A stretch of DNA of 28,757 bases from a virus. Positions 1 to 24,102 of the stretch are shown one piece after another; position 1 is the stretch's first letter; each line of letters starts with the position of its first letter. Both the position numbers and the translations under genes were made by a program. The DNA lies in IMG/VR virus record IMGVR_UViG_3300025647_000193, positions 1 through 28,757 of that record. The stretch is one strand, 5' to 3'. Below the pieces are notes generated by a model, which saw only the letters and a list, made by a program, of their open reading frames with translations, was not told the origin of the DNA and did not search any database.

Positions 1-165
1 CCCCCCCCTCCCCCGTCTTGCCGGCGGAGCGGGCGCTCGAGGTCGCCGAGGGGCAGCGCAGCCAGGCGCCGTAGGCGAGCAGCCGAGCTGGCCGGCGGCG
101 CACCTGGCCGGCAGCCCTTCCCCCCCCTGCCCCGCCCGGCCAGGAGGTTGAGACGCAGAGGCCGA
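1..165. other. Non-coding left end, C-rich with G-quadruplex-capable tract
   Basis: No convincing gene lies between the window edge and the stop of the first minus-strand gene at 166. The first 14 bases are C8-T-C5. At 115-137 four C-runs (3, 8, 4 and 3 bases) are separated by 1-2 bases, so the minus strand carries a classical four-run G-quadruplex motif just downstream of the minus-strand operon. The remainder is GC-rich with several GCCGGC-type short palindromes. It may be the end of a linear molecule or simply where assembly stopped; I cannot tell which. Confidence 0.5.
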
Positions 166-1129: not shown

Positions 1130-1540
1130 CTACCAGCCGAGGGTGTCGCAGCCGGGTTTATATTTCTTCGGCAGCTCGCGGATGTGAATGACGACCTTCG
1201 GCGGGTTCTCGACCTGGCGCCGGACGATCCGCAGGTCGTCGATCTGCTCGTCGTCCACCCAGATGTTGAGCGCCTTGGTGATGGCATCCTCGACGGCCTT
1301 GGGCACGTTGCTCAGGTCGCGGCGCCGGCGGTCAGGGGGAAAGACCTCGAGCAGCACCTCGAGCCTGCCGGTAAACGGTCGCCGGCCGCCGACCTGCTTG
1401 CGGAGAGCTGCCAGCGCCTCGTCGCGGTAAATCCGGCCCATTTTGCTGAGGATCATGCCGCGCCTGGGCACAGCACGCCACAGCATATTCACGGAAGGCG
1501 GGTAGGGCAGCTCTAGCCGGAGTGTCTCAGGATTTGCCAT
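1130..1540 (-). CDS. rusA: RusA-family Holliday junction resolvase
   Basis: RusA enzymes cut four-way DNA junctions left by recombination and replication so that phage DNA can be packaged. The 136-residue length is typical (E. coli RusA is 120). The N-terminus LELPYPPSVNMLWR matches the usual RusA opening, and the catalytic block is visible: acidic residues at 70 and 75 in the FPPDRRRRDLSN segment, Lys81, Asp85, and the Asp pair 96-97 in NIWVDDEQIDDL. In the family these acidic residues bind magnesium and the lysine is essential. The start is ATG at 1540. The gene is third in the minus-strand block after the primase-helicase and the HExxH gene, and its 5' leader contains four of the iteron-like repeat units, so its transcription may be controlled there. 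Confidence 0.93.
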   Translation of the reverse strand: MANPETLRLELPYPPSVNMLWRAVPRRGMILSKMGRIYRDEALAALRKQVGGRRPFTGRLEVLLEVFPPDRRRRDLSNVPKAVEDAITKALNIWVDDEQIDDLRIVRRQVENPPKVVIHIRELPKKYKPGCDTLGW

Positions 1541-1544
1541 CGAG

Positions 1545-1594
1545 GACTTTTGTCACTTTCGTCAGTAGCTTCTGCCACAAGTCTGACGAAAGTC
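1545..1594. repeat. Iteron-like repeat cluster, left flank of HExxH gene
   Basis: Four copies of an 11-base unit with consensus GACTTKYGKCA. On the plus strand GACTTTTGTCA is at 1545-1555, followed directly by CTTTCGTCA at 1556-1564. On the minus strand GACTTTCGTCA is at 1584-1594 and GACTTGTGGCA at 1573-1583, head to tail. The facing copies form an 11-bp inverted repeat (1555-1565 with 1583-1593). An AT-rich stretch (about 1600-1626) follows at once, as at iteron origins. Related copies occur at 1644, 2035 and 2094-2135. The pattern was read directly; its function as origin or operator is inferred. Confidence 0.75.
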
Positions 1595-1635
1595 GGCAGC
1601 TTTATCCTCTTTTGTTTCAATGTGCTTAGGAGGAT

Positions 1636-1983
1636 CTAGCCTAGACTTTCGTCAGAGATTGAGGGGATGGGGGGGGTGTGACCTGCTCGCCGGCCGAACG
1701 ACCAGGCCGCGAGCTCGGGGTTATCCCGCATGATCTGAATGAATCCGGTCGAGAAGGCACAGATGCCGGCCTCGCTGATCTTGACCTCGAGGAGGCTCTC
1801 GACGACGTGGCAGAGCTCATGCCACAGCACCAGGAGAGTGTTTTCCGCCGGCAATCCGTCCAGCACCTGGATCTTGAGGGTGCTCGGGTCGAAGGTGCCA
1901 AGGCAGTCTTCGATCTCGGAGACATACTCGATATCTACAACGATGCCGAAGACGCGCACGCTGGTCGGGCGGATCTCTCGCAC
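1636..1983 (-). CDS. Small HExxH zincin-like protein
   Basis: A 115-residue protein with a zinc-metallopeptidase signature HELCH at residues 55-59, preceded by a hydrophobic helix start (NTLLVLW) and followed by an acidic helix (VVESLLEVKISEAG) that could supply the third ligand. The segment before it (about 1-50) looks like alternating beta strands. There is no signal peptide. The overall plan, short beta region then HExxH helix, recalls ImmA/IrrE- or SprT-like domains that cleave regulators or DNA-bound proteins, but I cannot place it in a named family. The start is GTG at 1983 preceded by AGGGTGG. The gene sits alone between two intergenic regions carrying the same iteron-like repeats, and its last codons lie inside one copy (1641-1655). 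That bracketing suggests autoregulation, or a cassette inserted within the repeat array. Confidence 0.72.
   Translation of the reverse strand: MREIRPTSVRVFGIVVDIEYVSEIEDCLGTFDPSTLKIQVLDGLPAENTLLVLWHELCHVVESLLEVKISEAGICAFSTGFIQIMRDNPELAAWSFGRRAGHTPPIPSISDESLG
1641..1655. repeat. 15-bp arm of inverted repeat bracketing the HExxH gene (left)
   Basis: CTAGACTTTCGTCAG, containing the 11-base iteron unit (1644-1654). Its exact reverse complement is at 2034-2048, so the two arms bracket the HExxH gene. This copy overlaps the last codons of that gene (Ser-Asp-Glu-Ser-Leu). Seen directly in the sequence. Confidence 0.8.
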
Positions 1984-2033
1984 GGCGCCACCCTAGCACA
2001 CCTCGGGGTGTGATATAGCCCCCCCTCGGTTTT

Positions 2034-2048
2034 CTGACGAAAGTCTAG
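2034..2048. repeat. 15-bp arm of inverted repeat bracketing the HExxH gene (right)
   Basis: CTGACGAAAGTCTAG, the exact reverse complement of 1641-1655, lying in the leader upstream of the HExxH gene start at 1983. It contains one minus-strand copy of the 11-base unit (2035-2045). Confidence 0.8.
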
Positions 2049-2093
2049 GGGCGATCCGCCCAAGCCCTTGCCGCGCCGGAGCTTAGGCCTGTG

Positions 2094-2136
2094 GACTTTT
2101 GGCAGACTTGTGGCAGACTTTCGTCACTTCCGTCAG
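2094..2136. repeat. Tandem iteron-like repeats, right flank
   Basis: Four consecutive plus-strand units: GACTTTTGGCA (2094-2104), GACTTGTGGCA (2105-2115), GACTTTCGTCA (2116-2126) and the shorter CTTCCGTCA (2127-2135). Spacing is 11, 11, then 9 when aligned on the CTT core, about one helical turn per unit, as expected for cooperative protein binding. The 21 bases 2116-2136 differ from 1545-1565 at only two positions, and the 15 bases 2103-2117 recur exactly in reverse at 1571-1585. The array ends just after the stop of the primase-helicase gene (2158). Confidence 0.78.
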
Positions 2137-2157
2137 AGCGCTGCCAGAAGGTGGCGG

Positions 2158-4347
2158 CTACCTTGTCGCAACGTAAGCCACCCGCGTCCTGCCGGGTGTC
2201 GGGATCGTGACCTCTGCGACCTGGCCGGCGAGCTCCAGCGCCTCGAGGACCTGCTGCCGGTCTCGCGGGGTGAGCCTCGCCCAGGCGCCGGTCCTCGCCA
2301 TTTCGCGGCTGGTCAGCCCCCGGTCACCAGCGCGGATCAAGGCCAGGTGGCACTCCTTGACCCGCGCCTGAAAAGGCGAGTCGGCCACCCGCATCTTCAC
2401 CTCGTGGATCATCCGCGCCTGCGACCACTTGACAAAGGCAATGGCCCACTCGGCATCCTCGGCGTGGATGGCCGGCCGGGTCAGGCTGCGGCACAGCGCG
2501 TGGATCAGCGCCAGCTTGGCCGCGTGTTCCCACGCCCGATTGTGCAGCGCGTCGAGGCCGGTGCCCCGGTCGCGGTCCATCAGCTGGCCGATCTCCTGGT
2601 CGAAGACGTCGAACACCGCCTCGGCGCCCTCGGTCATGGCCACCTCGATGGGCGCCTTGGGATTGACGCCAACCAGGTTGCCGGCGCCGGAGGTGCTCGA
2701 GGTGTTCGCGGCCTTGGCCCACTTGACGATGCTGGGCGGCACGTCCTGCCGGACCGGCTGCTGTCGGCGTGGCCGGTTGACCGAGGTCTCGACCACGAGC
2801 AGGCGGTTCAGGTATCCGCTGACGACGTGGCTGCTGCCCAGCGCCCGGTAGAACGTCTCCGGGGTCGTCGTCCCGTAGACTGAGACCGAGGGGCACTCGA
2901 TCTCGATGCGCGGGCGCTTGTCCTGGTCGGCATACTCGGTGCCGATGTAGGTGTCGGCCGAACTCGAAAAGAGCTTCATCAGGTTGGAGAGGATGGCCAC
3001 GAGGTGGCTGCCGGCGTTCGGATTCTGAATCGCCTGCATGAGCAGCCCGAACTCGTCCAGCTGGAAGAGCACCGTGGGAGACTTGGCCGCGCGGCTGATG
3101 ATGGCCTGCCCGCTCGCGAGCTCCTCGCCGCCGAGACGGTCGCCCAGGCCGCAGGCCAGCAAGATGCGCTTGGCTGCGGTCCTCGCGTGATTCTTGCCGC
3201 AGCCGGTCGGGCCGATCGACACCACATAAAGATTGGTTCGCAGGTTGGTCTCGGTCGCGTATCGCCGGCCCAGGATCGTGCCGACCACGGTGAGGGCCGC
3301 AGCCACGGCGAAGGGTCGTTGCGGGCGGATTGAGGTGGCGTCAATCCAGTCCACCATGAGGCCGAGGATGCCCTTCGGGTAGAGCAGATAATCCGGCATC
3401 TCGACCACGCCGTCCTGCTCGGCGCTGGCCAGCTCCACCTGCGAAACGGTCGGCAGCTCGCGCCGCTCGTCATGCCGCGAAAGGCCGTAGCCATACTTCT
3501 TGGCGAGGCCGAAGAGGGTGCTGAGGGTGACGCCGCCGCTGTCGTCGAAGCTGGCCCAGACCCGCGCCTGGTCTTTTGCGTCGTATTTCGCCGACTTCTG
3601 AGACCACTCGGACCACAGCCGAAAGGCCAAGGCCTCGCCGAGCTGGTCGGCCGCGCTGTGGAGCGCCATGCCGGCGAACAGCCACTCGTCGCGGTCGTCG
3701 GCCGGCACCACCTCGAGCGCCTCGCGGATCTCGGCAGCCTTCTCGGGCTCGGCCTGGTGCTGTAGCCGGCCGAGAGGCAGCACCGGCACCGGCACTTGGC
3801 GCGGCCGGGTGAGCAGCCACGCCGGCGCGGGCAGGATCTCGGCGGCGTCGTCTCGCCACCGGTAGAACCCGCCGGACTGGTGGCCGCTAGGCGGCACGAC
3901 GATGTAGCCGCCCTCGCCCTTGATGTCGATGCCCTCGGCGAGCTTGCCGCAGGCCATGCCATCCTCCGGCAGCTGGAAGATGAAGTGCCGGCCCCCACCG
4001 CCGGTGAGGTTGACCAACGTGGGCGGCAGGGCGCCGTTCTCCAGCTCCAGCTCGGCCAGCGCGTCGTCGCCGCCGTTGCGCGGGTCGATGTCGAGCGCCC
4101 AGATGCCGGAGATCGCGCCGGTGCGGACGCCGAGGTTGGCGGCCGGCCAGCGGTTGAACCAGATGCGGGCGTCGGCGGGGTCGTGGCTGGCGCCTTTCAG
4201 CCCGTCGGGCAGCCAAGGGTGCTTGCCGGGCGAGCGGCAGGCGCGGTTGCGGCAGGAGCACTCGCCTGCGGCGTTCACGGAGTGCAGGGGCAAGACGGCC
4301 CAGCCACGCTTCTGAAGGGCGAGGGCATACGCGAGAGAGGACACCAT
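2158..4347 (-). CDS. Bifunctional primase-polymerase / helicase replication protein
   Basis: A 729-residue replication protein. Residues 1-180 are a prim-pol (archaeo-eukaryotic primase) domain: a Cys-rich loop (C30, C32, C37 then GKHP), the metal-binding DID at 86-88, GGGGRH at 116-121, and a third acidic motif around D141 (DIKGEGG). Residues about 205-285 resemble a PriCT-type linker (WLFAGMALHS and following). Residues about 340-600 form an AAA/P-loop ATPase with Walker A GPTGCGKN (379-386) and Walker B VLFQLDE (426-432), like DUF3987-type phage helicases. The C-terminus (about 670-729) looks like a winged helix. In related phages such proteins prime and unwind DNA for replication. I chose ATG 4347 because the prim-pol domain begins right after it; the frame is open further upstream, but that part has no domain character and overlaps the plus-strand gene at 4484. 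The iteron-like repeats lie directly downstream. Confidence 0.88.
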   Translation of the reverse strand: MVSSLAYALALQKRGWAVLPLHSVNAAGECSCRNRACRSPGKHPWLPDGLKGASHDPADARIWFNRWPAANLGVRTGAISGIWALDIDPRNGGDDALAELELENGALPPTLVNLTGGGGRHFIFQLPEDGMACGKLAEGIDIKGEGGYIVVPPSGHQSGGFYRWRDDAAEILPAPAWLLTRPRQVPVPVLPLGRLQHQAEPEKAAEIREALEVVPADDRDEWLFAGMALHSAADQLGEALAFRLWSEWSQKSAKYDAKDQARVWASFDDSGGVTLSTLFGLAKKYGYGLSRHDERRELPTVSQVELASAEQDGVVEMPDYLLYPKGILGLMVDWIDATSIRPQRPFAVAAALTVVGTILGRRYATETNLRTNLYVVSIGPTGCGKNHARTAAKRILLACGLGDRLGGEELASGQAIISRAAKSPTVLFQLDEFGLLMQAIQNPNAGSHLVAILSNLMKLFSSSADTYIGTEYADQDKRPRIEIECPSVSVYGTTTPETFYRALGSSHVVSGYLNRLLVVETSVNRPRRQQPVRQDVPPSIVKWAKAANTSSTSGAGNLVGVNPKAPIEVAMTEGAEAVFDVFDQEIGQLMDRDRGTGLDALHNRAWEHAAKLALIHALCRSLTRPAIHAEDAEWAIAFVKWSQARMIHEVKMRVADSPFQARVKECHLALIRAGDRGLTSREMARTGAWARLTPRDRQQVLEALELAGQVAEVTIPTPGRTRVAYVATR

Positions 4348-9409: not shown

Positions 9410-9582
9410 GCGAGAAGAGAGCGACCAGCTCGCTGACCTGGCGCAACCTGGCCAGGCTGGCCATCGCCCTGCTCATGTTCTGGCTGATCCTGGCCTTCAC
9501 CACCTCGGCTGTGATTGTCGGATACCGTGCCGCTATGATTGCCGGCACGGCAGCCGCCGACCTGATCCTTGCCCATGAGTAG
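9406..9582 (+). CDS. Small single-span membrane protein, 58 aa
   Basis: A basic N-terminus (SEKRATSSLTWRNLAR) precedes one long hydrophobic stretch (residues about 18-39, ARLAIALLMFWLILAFTTSAVI), predicting an inside-facing N-terminus and one membrane span; a second weaker hydrophobic part (AAMIAGTAAADLIL) follows. The start ATG 9406 overlaps the previous stop as ATGA. Unrecognised; the second small membrane protein of this cluster. Confidence 0.66.
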   Translation: MSEKRATSSLTWRNLARLAIALLMFWLILAFTTSAVIVGYRAAMIAGTAAADLILAHE

Positions 9583-9778
9583 CCAAGAAGAAAAAAGAAG
9601 AGCGCAAGTCGCCGCGAGCGTGGCTCGACACCGCCAGAAGCGTGACCGCCTCGAGGTCTACCTGCCCGCCGGCTGGCGTGAGCGCCTCGCCGAGGTCAAC
9701 CAGAGCGAAAACCTGAGCACGACAGCATGGGTGAGGAAGGTAGTGGCCGCGCGGATCGGGGAAGCGGAACCTTCCTGA
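9575..9778 (+). CDS. Putative ribbon-helix-helix DNA-binding protein
   Basis: A 67-residue basic protein. After a charged N-terminal helix (EEKRRAQVAASVARHRQKRD), residues about 28-34 form the likely beta strand (RLEVYLP), followed by two helices (GWRERLAEVNQSEN and STTAWVRKVVAARIG), the pattern of Arc/MetJ-type ribbon-helix-helix regulators. It is the only candidate DNA-binding regulator in the plus-strand block and could act on operators in this genome, such as the iteron-like repeats; that is conjecture. ATG 9575 lies just before the previous stop (overlap of 8 bases); a TTG at 9569 is also in frame. Confidence 0.68.
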   Translation: MSSQEEKRRAQVAASVARHRQKRDRLEVYLPAGWRERLAEVNQSENLSTTAWVRKVVAARIGEAEPS

Positions 9779-10050
9779 TCTTGACCTGCTGGGGTTGCGA
9801 CGGCCTCGGATTTCGCGCCCCGAGGATCGCCGCCGAGGTGTGCCTGGTCTGCGCCGGCCACGGCAGGATGCGGCGCGAGCCTGGTCCAGATGGCCGCTGG
9901 GAGCCGCTCGAGCCGCACGACCACAGCTGGAGGTCGGCGTGGATCGTATCCCGCCACGATTGGATCTACGGCGCCAGCCAGGGCGAGGCCGAGGGCGAGG
10001 CCGAGGCCCAGGCGGAGGAAGACGGCGAGGACTGGCCCGAAGATTTCTGA
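9727..10050 (+). CDS. DnaJ-type zinc-finger protein with acidic tail
   Basis: Two C-x2-C-x-G-x-G motifs, CWGCDGLG (C21, C24) and CLVCAGHG (C39, C42), match the zinc-binding repeats of DnaJ; two such repeats can hold one zinc. The rest is polar with several Trp and His residues (EPLEPHDHSWRSAWIVSRHDW), then a Gly-Glu-Ala-rich repeat (GEAEGEAEAQAEE) ending DWPEDF. No J-domain is present, so it is not a DnaJ chaperone. The start is uncertain: ATG 9727 overlaps the previous gene by 52 bases, while TTG 9781, two bases past that gene's stop, keeps both zinc motifs. I give the longer form. Confidence 0.66.
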   Translation: MGEEGSGRADRGSGTFLILTCWGCDGLGFRAPRIAAEVCLVCAGHGRMRREPGPDGRWEPLEPHDHSWRSAWIVSRHDWIYGASQGEAEGEAEAQAEEDGEDWPEDF

Positions 10051-22059: not shown

Positions 22060-24102
22060 TTAGACCGAGGTGTCCACCGAGATGGCAAACGCCTGCTCGT
22101 GGCGGAAGCCGATGTCCAGATCCTGCAAGCCGACCAGGCGGACGGCGCCGTAGCTGCTCAGGGTGTAGGGATCCATGGTCAGATCCAGGCCACCCCACAT
22201 GGCCACGATGCAGGAGGTGAAGTCGCCGAAGACCACGCCGTGCAGCGACGAGCCGGTGCCCTTGGTGAGGTCGGTCGGCAGGTTGTTGCTGGTCAGCACG
22301 CGGTAGCCGTTGGCCTCGCCGTTTTCGATGAGGAAGCGGGCGGTGTTCGACGCCTTCTCGATGGTCTTGCAGCTCGACACGGTGCCCGGGGTCATGACGA
22401 AGACCATGTTGCTGCCCTGGGCGTTGTCCACCCGGACCAGCTCTTCGTATTCGACAATCGTAGCCCAGGTCTCGGCGCCGCCGTTGGTGCCGTGGCTGAC
22501 GGTGTTCACGCCACCCGACAGGTTGAGGATGCCGGTCGGCTCGCCGCTGCTGCCGCTGCCGTTCAGGATGGTCGCGTCGAGCTTCACAGCCAGAGCGCGC
22601 GCGAGATCGCCCATGATGAGGCGATCAACGCTCGGGTCAGCCTGGTGGAAGAGCTTGCGGCCGATGTCCACGAAGGTGCCGCAAGTTTCCGGGCTCAGCG
22701 CCACCTGGGCGAAGGTCGGGGTGCTTTCCGACACCGCCGCAGCCTCGTTGGCCACGAAAGCCGCCGTGCTGCCGGCGCTCATCTTCGGGATGGAGATGTC
22801 GCCTTGGATGCCGGTGAGCTTGGTGGTGAGCGGGAAGACCACGCTGTGGTCGCTCAGGACGTCGATGAAGGCGTTGCCCTGGTGCTCGTCGGCAACCAGG
22901 TAACCGCCGGCGCTGCCCGAGGCCGTGCTGATGTCGCGCTTCTGGAGCACGTCGAACGGCACGATCACGCCGCGCGCCGCCCGGCCCTGGACCTTCTCGG
23001 CAGCAGCCGACGCCTCGAGCTCAAACGCGGCCTCCTCGGCCAGGCGCTTGTTCGTGGGGTCGGCCATGTGGCGCAGCACCTTGGTCAGGCTGTAGCGCTT
23101 GACCTCCTTGGCGCTCATGCCCACCTCGGCCTTCTCGACCGGGCGCAGGCGGATCTGCTCGAGCACGGCCGCGCGGAACTCGTCCACGCTCTTGCCGCTC
23201 TCGATGAACTTGCGGGCGAGCTCGCCCTGACGGTGGGCAGCGCCCAGAGATTCGATGTCCTTGATCCGAGCCAGTTCGGCGGCTCGCACGTCCTGGACAT
23301 CATCGGTCTTGATTTCAGACACGGTGATTTCCTCCTCAGGAATGGTGGGTTCTTGTGATGCCGAACGGCCGATGCCGACGTGGGGGTCGGCCGGGATGCT
23401 TACCCAGGAAATCTCCAGGGGCTCCCAGTCAACCGCCCGCCAGATCTCCTCGTCCTGGTCGGTCTTTTCCTTGCGGACTTCGTGAATGACGTATCCAACC
23501 GAGATATGTCGCTTCACTCCGTCCTTCACGTCTTGGAAAACTTCCTGAGCGAGTGCGCTGTTGCCGAAACGCACGGACGCGCGAGCCACGCGGTCGTCTC
23601 CCAGGTTGATCTCCTCGACGACCCCGATGTGCTTGGCGGGGTCGTGTTCCAGCAGCAGCGGGGCGCCGTCACGCAGCCGGCCGTCGCGGACCGAGCCGGC
23701 GCCATGGTCCAAGACCTCGACGCCCCAGCCGCGCTCCACCGGATGCTCGCTGGAAAACGCCACCTGGACGGTGCGGGCGTCCTCGTCGATTGCGGCCCGG
23801 CTGACCGAGAAGGTGCGCGACAGCTTGGCATCGCGCCAGGTCGCGCCGCCGGCCAAGATCGCGCTGCCGGCATAGGTCGCCATGCTGCGCTTGAACTCGC
23901 CAGTCTCCTCGGGGGTCTGCTCTTCGTTTTCTTCGGTCACGGTGCCCTCATCGTAGATTTCGGCACCTTCCTCTTCAATCTCGGCAGCCACTTCTGCGCG
24001 CGCCTCGGCGGGAATCTCCTCCACCTGGCCGCGCTCCGTCTCGGCGCCTGCCTCGAGCTGGCCGGCCTCGCCGGCGGTCTCGTTTTTCGCTTGTTCAGCC
24101 AT
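22060..24102 (-). CDS. Fused HK97-type prohead protease and major capsid protein
   Basis: One 680-residue polypeptide. Residues 1-72 are strongly acidic. Residues about 73-247 form a prohead protease of the S78/U35 type with His153 (LLLEHDP) and Ser201 (KRHISVGY), ending ISWVSIPADP. Residues about 255-385 are a helical delta-like region. Residues about 390-680 are an HK97-fold capsid protein (SAGGYLVADEHQGNAFIDVL, then SSGEPTGILNLSGG). The protease would cut itself free and remove the delta domain during head maturation. Separate genes are the rule; fusions are known in some phages. The start ATG 24102 overlaps the portal stop by 8 bases. A terminator-like hairpin follows the stop. Confidence 0.93.
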   Translation of the reverse strand: MAEQAKNETAGEAGQLEAGAETERGQVEEIPAEARAEVAAEIEEEGAEIYDEGTVTEENEEQTPEETGEFKRSMATYAGSAILAGGATWRDAKLSRTFSVSRAAIDEDARTVQVAFSSEHPVERGWGVEVLDHGAGSVRDGRLRDGAPLLLEHDPAKHIGVVEEINLGDDRVARASVRFGNSALAQEVFQDVKDGVKRHISVGYVIHEVRKEKTDQDEEIWRAVDWEPLEISWVSIPADPHVGIGRSASQEPTIPEEEITVSEIKTDDVQDVRAAELARIKDIESLGAAHRQGELARKFIESGKSVDEFRAAVLEQIRLRPVEKAEVGMSAKEVKRYSLTKVLRHMADPTNKRLAEEAAFELEASAAAEKVQGRAARGVIVPFDVLQKRDISTASGSAGGYLVADEHQGNAFIDVLSDHSVVFPLTTKLTGIQGDISIPKMSAGSTAAFVANEAAAVSESTPTFAQVALSPETCGTFVDIGRKLFHQADPSVDRLIMGDLARALAVKLDATILNGSGSSGEPTGILNLSGGVNTVSHGTNGGAETWATIVEYEELVRVDNAQGSNMVFVMTPGTVSSCKTIEKASNTARFLIENGEANGYRVLTSNNLPTDLTKGTGSSLHGVVFGDFTSCIVAMWGGLDLTMDPYTLSSYGAVRLVGLQDLDIGFRHEQAFAISVDTSV

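Follow-up and report, generated by a model that had tools for sequence, protein, structure and literature searches.

The window analysed here covers the full 28,757 bases of a virus contig from IMG/VR and is an incomplete tailed-phage genome. The record includes major head, portal, terminase and tail genes, and the frame of the terminase small subunit (TerS) runs off its end, with further genes found upstream of TerS in the relatives L018 and L020. Runs of C stand at the very start of the window and at positions 120–127, and the record probably broke in assembly within window positions 1–140. On the minus strand, a gene encoding a PrimPol-PriCT-2-DUF3987 protein (2158–4344) is followed by a cluster of short repeats (cluster 2), a small HExxH gene, a second cluster (cluster 1), a RusA gene and a neck protein gene. 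Divergent from the PrimPol gene are genes for a Sak4-like ATPase, a DUF669 single-strand binding protein and a Cas4-type exonuclease. The features of the region are as follows.

1130–1540, minus strand: RusA-like Holliday-junction resolvase (PF05866, E = 2e-14; PHROG 34), downstream of the array
1545–1564, plus strand: two iterons, GACTTTTGTCA and CACTTTCGTCA, at 9-bp spacing
1573–1594, minus strand: two tandem iterons, GACTTTCGTCA and GACTTGTGGCA, at 11-bp spacing
1600–1627, no strand: AT-rich patch (30–33% GC), proposed melting site, with iterons on either side
1619–1643, plus strand: GTGCTTAGGAGGATCTAGCCTA-like spacer element, homologous to the element at 2046–2069
1636–1983, minus strand: HExxH metallopeptidase-like gene, 115 aa (PHROG 1233, weak DUF6782 match), inside the array
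1644–1654, plus strand: iteron GACTTTCGTCA, inverted relative to 1573–1594 and overlapping the 3' end of the HExxH frame
2035–2045, minus strand: iteron GACTTTCGTCA
2046–2069, minus strand: spacer element of cluster 2, homologous to 1619–1643 but GC-rich
2094–2135, plus strand: four tandem iterons, GACTTTTGGCA, GACTTGTGGCA, GACTTTCGTCA and CACTTCCGTCA, at 11/11/9-bp spacing
2142–2150, minus strand: iteron core CTTCTGGCA
2158–4344, minus strand: PrimPol-PriCT-2-DUF3987 helicase, proposed initiator, 728 aa from ATG 4344 (PF09250, PF08707, PF13148)
2161–2382, minus strand: C-terminal winged-helix domain of the latter (about residues 655–728; modelled as H-H-H-E-E plus wing), proposed iteron reader

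Good copies of the repeat cluster in this region. The consensus GACTTKYGKCA occurs exactly 8 times in the record, always within 1545–2126, compared with 0.10 on average, and never more than 1, in 60 dinucleotide shuffles. Two further units, CACTTTCGTCA at 1554 and CACTTCCGTCA at 2125, are one or two positions off the consensus, which bears out the roughly ten 11-base units on both strands described in an initial annotation of the sequence. The 9-base core CTTNYGKCA is found 11 times in 1547–2150 and only once elsewhere in the record (at 22677); the eleventh copy, at 2142–2150, had been missed. When two mismatches to GACTTKYGKCA are allowed, there is no window-wide enrichment (42 copies against 37.7 expected), and thus the distinctive feature is the cluster of good copies. 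The core scan of the record placed no unit inside the initiator gene (2158–4344). The finer layout claimed in the annotation could be read back from the sequence: the 11/11/9 spacing at 2094–2135, the facing pairs at 1545–1594 (two plus-strand units followed by two minus-strand units), the two 15-base exact matches, both of them in inverted orientation, and the 21-base segments with two differences. Its AT-rich patch is also real, as GC content drops to 30% in the 27-mer at 1601 against about 66% for the genome, one of the lowest values of any 27-mer in the record; equally low values occur only near 10040 and 6153. The array adjoins the end of the primase-helicase gene as reported, the nearest unit (2142–2150) lying 7 bp from the end of the frame at 2158.

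Clusters 1 and 2 share a plan consisting of tandem units, a spacer of 48–49 bp and an inverted unit. Their spacers are related as well, with 14 of 21 positions identical beside the unit (p = 5e-5 against shuffles). From this common plan and the related spacer ends, the two clusters look like diverged copies of one half-origin set in inverted orientation. Each cluster can be folded into a predicted stem-loop whose stem is an inverted pair of iterons (z = -4.2 and -2.3); in the stronger of the two, 1644–1654 pairs with 1584–1594 to form a 13-bp stem. Comparison of the DNA of both clusters with phages and plasmids returned chance-like matches only.

The gene upstream of the array encodes the proposed initiator. 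Its start at ATG 4344 was chosen from the homologue in L030, and the open frame extends to TTG 4563. The protein matches the DNA primase family PHROG 3022 (E = 5e-124) and contains a Prim-Pol (AEP) domain (PF09250, E = 1.5e-39). An AF2 model with a mean pLDDT of 87.6 finds its best fold matches in the PDB among MCM helicases, and the helicase part of the model resembles MCM rings. For the C-terminal domain, a profile search of the PDB matched the winged-helix structure 2dk5 (E = 0.004), and the fold matches are to winged-helix proteins 8cll and 2dk5 and to MarR/PadR proteins, none below E = 0.001. The confident model, together with these weak profile and fold matches, suggests that the domain is a winged helix.

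An array in the same place is found in many related phages. In the closest relative, L030 (66% PrimPol identity), synteny is the same and diverged units occupy both gaps, and L031, L032 and L034 have clear TTTCGTCA/CTTTCGTCA/CTTTTGGCA arrays, built of related words, directly 3' of PrimPol, with strongly AT-rich cores in L032 and L034. An alignment scan gathered 80 PrimPol relatives, of which 68 non-redundant loci were used in a count that assumes no particular word: the most repeated nine-mer was taken on both strands with one mismatch in a 450-bp interval, and the interval was called positive at 6 copies or more. By this test, 27/68 loci are positive 3' of PrimPol, compared with 4/295 intervals 3' of other genes (Fisher p = 3e-18). 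Among the 20 nearest relatives, 17 are positive, and in 26 loci (some redundant) the stretch 3' of PrimPol is the most repetitive interval of the locus. When non-coding gaps only are compared, 11/24 gaps 3' of PrimPol reach at least 6 copies and none of 65 control gaps does; the array is more than a property of non-coding DNA. An independent set drawn from GTDB bacterial genomes added 11 new non-redundant loci, 8 of them positive. The window itself scores only 4 copies in the 450-bp test because the HExxH gene splits its array. Absence or random scatter of the unit in related phages was among the grounds on which the initial annotation would have been refuted, and the comparison with relatives did not overturn it.

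The repeated word differs by lineage (CTTTTGGCA, TTGTCTGCG, ATTGTTG, ACTAACAAT, GTGTCACAA, ATTATGGAG and others), whereas the 3' place is conserved. Spacings between consecutive units peak at 8–14 and 15–22 bp (112/213). TTTATATATA-like tracts were seen in 19/40 regions 3' of PrimPol versus 1/40 controls. Iteron sets enclose the AT-richest spot in 16/27 loci, which is not significantly more than the 11.7 expected by position alone. A second element, AAGGGTTATAA, stands near the iterons in the 3' regions of L037, L038, L041, L043, L046, L047, L049 and L051, and is replaced by CATGCGGGTTT in L033, L055 and L139; the element recurs in 10/38 loci versus 0–1 in controls. One positive locus, L103, has a strict 15-bp period and may hold a different kind of repeat. 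In the Vibrio phage vB_VnaS-L3 (L114:3525–3975), AAACCTTAC occurs six times on the 5' side of PrimPol instead of the 3' side, perhaps an origin that moved. Dense repeats with 11–16 copies of one nine-mer occur in L014:1200–1650, L111:7875–8325 and L112:1875–2325, where the PrimPol 3' end has none; these are either coding repeats or displaced arrays. Among 15 distant named phages (24–29% identity), just two, Torfinnsbu (6 copies) and H103 (5 copies), have an array 3' of the gene, and the Serratia, Dickeya and Klebsiella phages sampled among the 15 are without one. Thus, the 3' array is a feature of a clade and is not universal. Searching IMG/VR with PrimPol or RusA of the window as a single query protein returned nothing usable.

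The conserved place bears on whether the units serve replication or transcription. Both clusters lie upstream of genes, HExxH and RusA, and the phage encodes an RHH-like protein (9569–9778) with a weak Arc-like match, so that the units could be operators bound by this protein, or by PrimPol as an autoregulator, to control HExxH, RusA and the late genes. Origin iterons also often double as operators. However, the position of the array is tied to the 3' end of PrimPol, while the gene that follows it changes between relatives, judged by eye (RusA, a DUF1064-like nuclease, a methyltransferase, the terminase small subunit or VRR-NUC). A scan for one promoter type found no sigma-70-like promoter in the array, and an operator would not usually comprise as many as 12 copies and AT-rich cores. 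The word also covaries with the initiator. In a Mantel test, for which the words of the window and of a few loci were assigned by hand, word similarity between phages correlates with identity of the C-terminal domain (rho 0.316, p = 0.002), and rho is higher for this domain than for the helicase, PriCT-2 or PrimPol domains. In partial tests the C-terminal domain retains 0.22 given the helicase, whereas the helicase retains 0.05 given the C-terminal domain. Word similarity tracks PrimPol's own C-terminal domain, a point against operators, and the domain is proposed, from its modelled fold and this covariation, to read the iterons. Because the array keeps to the PrimPol 3' end whichever gene follows, and because its word varies with the initiator's C-terminal domain and its presence is not simply a non-coding property, the iteron-origin reading put forward in the initial annotation is strongly favoured and an operator array appears improbable.

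Other sites at which proteins bind short repeats fit the window less well than an origin does. A tandem-unit scan, in which three contigs matched, near chance expectation, is the source of two of these readings. In L010:2249–2518, four GACTTTTGGCA-like units flank a stretch like a tRNA 3' end beside a tyrosine integrase gene, possibly an attP with arm-type sites, and the 11-bp tandem units of the window could likewise be arm-type sites around a core to which a tyrosine integrase binds. No integrase, adjacent to the array or otherwise, was found among the window proteins scanned from this fragmentary record, no tRNA-like core was noticed in the window array, and the array stays beside PrimPol in the four closest PrimPol relatives; attP was set aside as very unlikely. 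In L009:2404–2425, tandem GACTTTTGGCA lies between a Xer-like recombinase gene and a gpNu1-like terminase small subunit gene, just upstream of the latter, and may be cosB or chance. The TerS of the window is gpNu1-like too, as would suit a cos or pac site with binding sites for the terminase small subunit. Its array does not adjoin TerS, however, other genes stand upstream of TerS in L018 and L020, and in relatives the array stays with PrimPol, which leaves packaging the least probable function. Tandem repeats of 9–11 bp near an RHH gene are seen in ParG/omega systems, and the units might on that pattern be centromere repeats for partition of a plasmid-like prophage. Against this, the scanned proteins include none that is ParA-like, about 7.5 kb separate the RHH gene from the array, and the covariation is with PrimPol, so a partition site seems highly doubtful.

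The HExxH gene is probably cargo that stands outside the origin mechanism. It occupies the equivalent place in L030, the sole PrimPol relative with this gene there. A homologue (36%) is found in L205:2971–3312, where it precedes small replication-type genes on a fragment of a phage contig in which no PrimPol was detected. The cargo reading follows from these two observations, and a part for HExxH in the mechanism was set aside. The array does lie around the HExxH gene, as the initial annotation had it, but the association with that gene appears incidental. The annotation had also proposed GC skew as a check. There is no local switch at the array in the window, a short fragment of mixed gene orientation in which skew is uninformative. 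A GC-skew minimum at the start of the primase gene in phage H103 was set aside as well, as it coincides with divergent transcription.

Several known origins share parts of this arrangement. Phage lambda, like the window, has iterons near an AT-rich stretch and encodes an initiator (O), but in lambda the iterons are part of the initiator gene and in the window they come after it; with no unit within 2158–4344, a lambda-type ori was ruled out. Phage P4 has two separated repeat clusters, ori1 and crr, as the window does. According to a summary, P4 alpha is a primase-helicase initiator whose winged helix binds repeats at its own origin (PMC4234260), and the proposed initiator of the window resembles it in this description. 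The primase domain of P4 alpha is Toprim whereas that of the window protein is AEP (PF09250), which rules out a P4-type replicon. The pRN1 protein ORF904 and the phage BIP-1 likewise combine an AEP primase, a helicase and a C-terminal winged helix with an origin (inferred in the window) directly 3' of the gene. The pRN1 origin and the proposed BIP-1 origin are described as having a stem-loop instead of iterons (PMC4234260). The window clusters also fold into predicted stem-loops (z = -4.2 and -2.3), although the window has 11 iterons and its stem is an inverted iteron pair inside the array.

The closest parallels are found in mobile elements. In PICIs, the origin directly follows the 3' end of rep, and its AT-rich region is flanked by two sets of iterons (PMC6092414). 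The iterons recognised by SaPI Rep and by SCCmec Cch2 are reported to lie downstream of the respective gene, and both proteins bind them with the C-terminal domain (PMC7581432). The window array likewise lies immediately 3' of a helicase initiator gene, 7 bp from its nearest unit, in a place conserved in relatives; short iterons at 1545–1594 and 1644 stand on both sides of its AT-rich patch, but across loci such flanking was not significantly commoner than position alone predicts; and the C-terminal reading of iterons known in SaPI is proposed for its initiator. The window element differs in three respects: it is a tailed phage that itself encodes capsid, portal, terminase and tail proteins, its initiator is a single PrimPol (AEP)-PriCT-2-DUF3987 protein and its array is split by the HExxH gene; with a major head gene among these, it is not itself a PICI. 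SCCmec Cch2 provides direct repeats downstream of a helicase gene that are bound via the helicase C-terminus (PMC7581432), a binding proposed for the window. The Cch2 origin, however, has only three 5-nt iterons, SCCmec primase consists of separate CCPol-MP proteins and SCCmec is not a phage. By analogy, the best explanation is that the proposed window origin works like a SaPI/PICI origin 3' of pri-rep.

The array thus very probably is the site where the phage starts to copy its genome, since it lies directly after a DNA-copying gene and a different repeated word lies there in most close relatives. With a probability of roughly 80%, 1545–2150 is a theta-type replication origin of a tailed phage whose iterons are bound by the PrimPol-DUF3987 helicase encoded upstream, via its C-terminal winged helix. 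Under the proposed mechanism, the winged helix would bind the iterons after its own gene, in sets on either side of the AT patch at 1600–1627, and the bound initiator would oligomerise into MCM-like AAA+ rings. These rings would melt the patch and load themselves, and the PrimPol domain would then lay primers for a host polymerase to extend. Two partly duplicated half-origins would have been separated by insertion of the small HExxH gene.

The layout of an initiator gene followed by iterons is known so far mainly from phage satellites, and a literature search made mostly on abstracts, which is not proof of novelty, yielded no description of tailed phages that carry iteron arrays 3' of PrimPol genes. 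We consider it fairly likely that the window belongs to a widespread and seemingly unrecognised class of tailed-phage replicons in which a PrimPol-DUF3987 initiator is paired with a cognate iteron origin after its gene, each lineage with its own word that changes with the winged helix, and that it is a derived, partly duplicated and cargo-split form of that class. If so, tailed phages of one clade would commonly have this layout, which would link the PrimPol replicons of phages, satellites and archaea. Origins could then be read from metagenomic phage contigs by inspecting the sequence after the PrimPol gene, and the paired variation of initiator domain and word would provide many natural, testable pairs of initiator-origin specificity.
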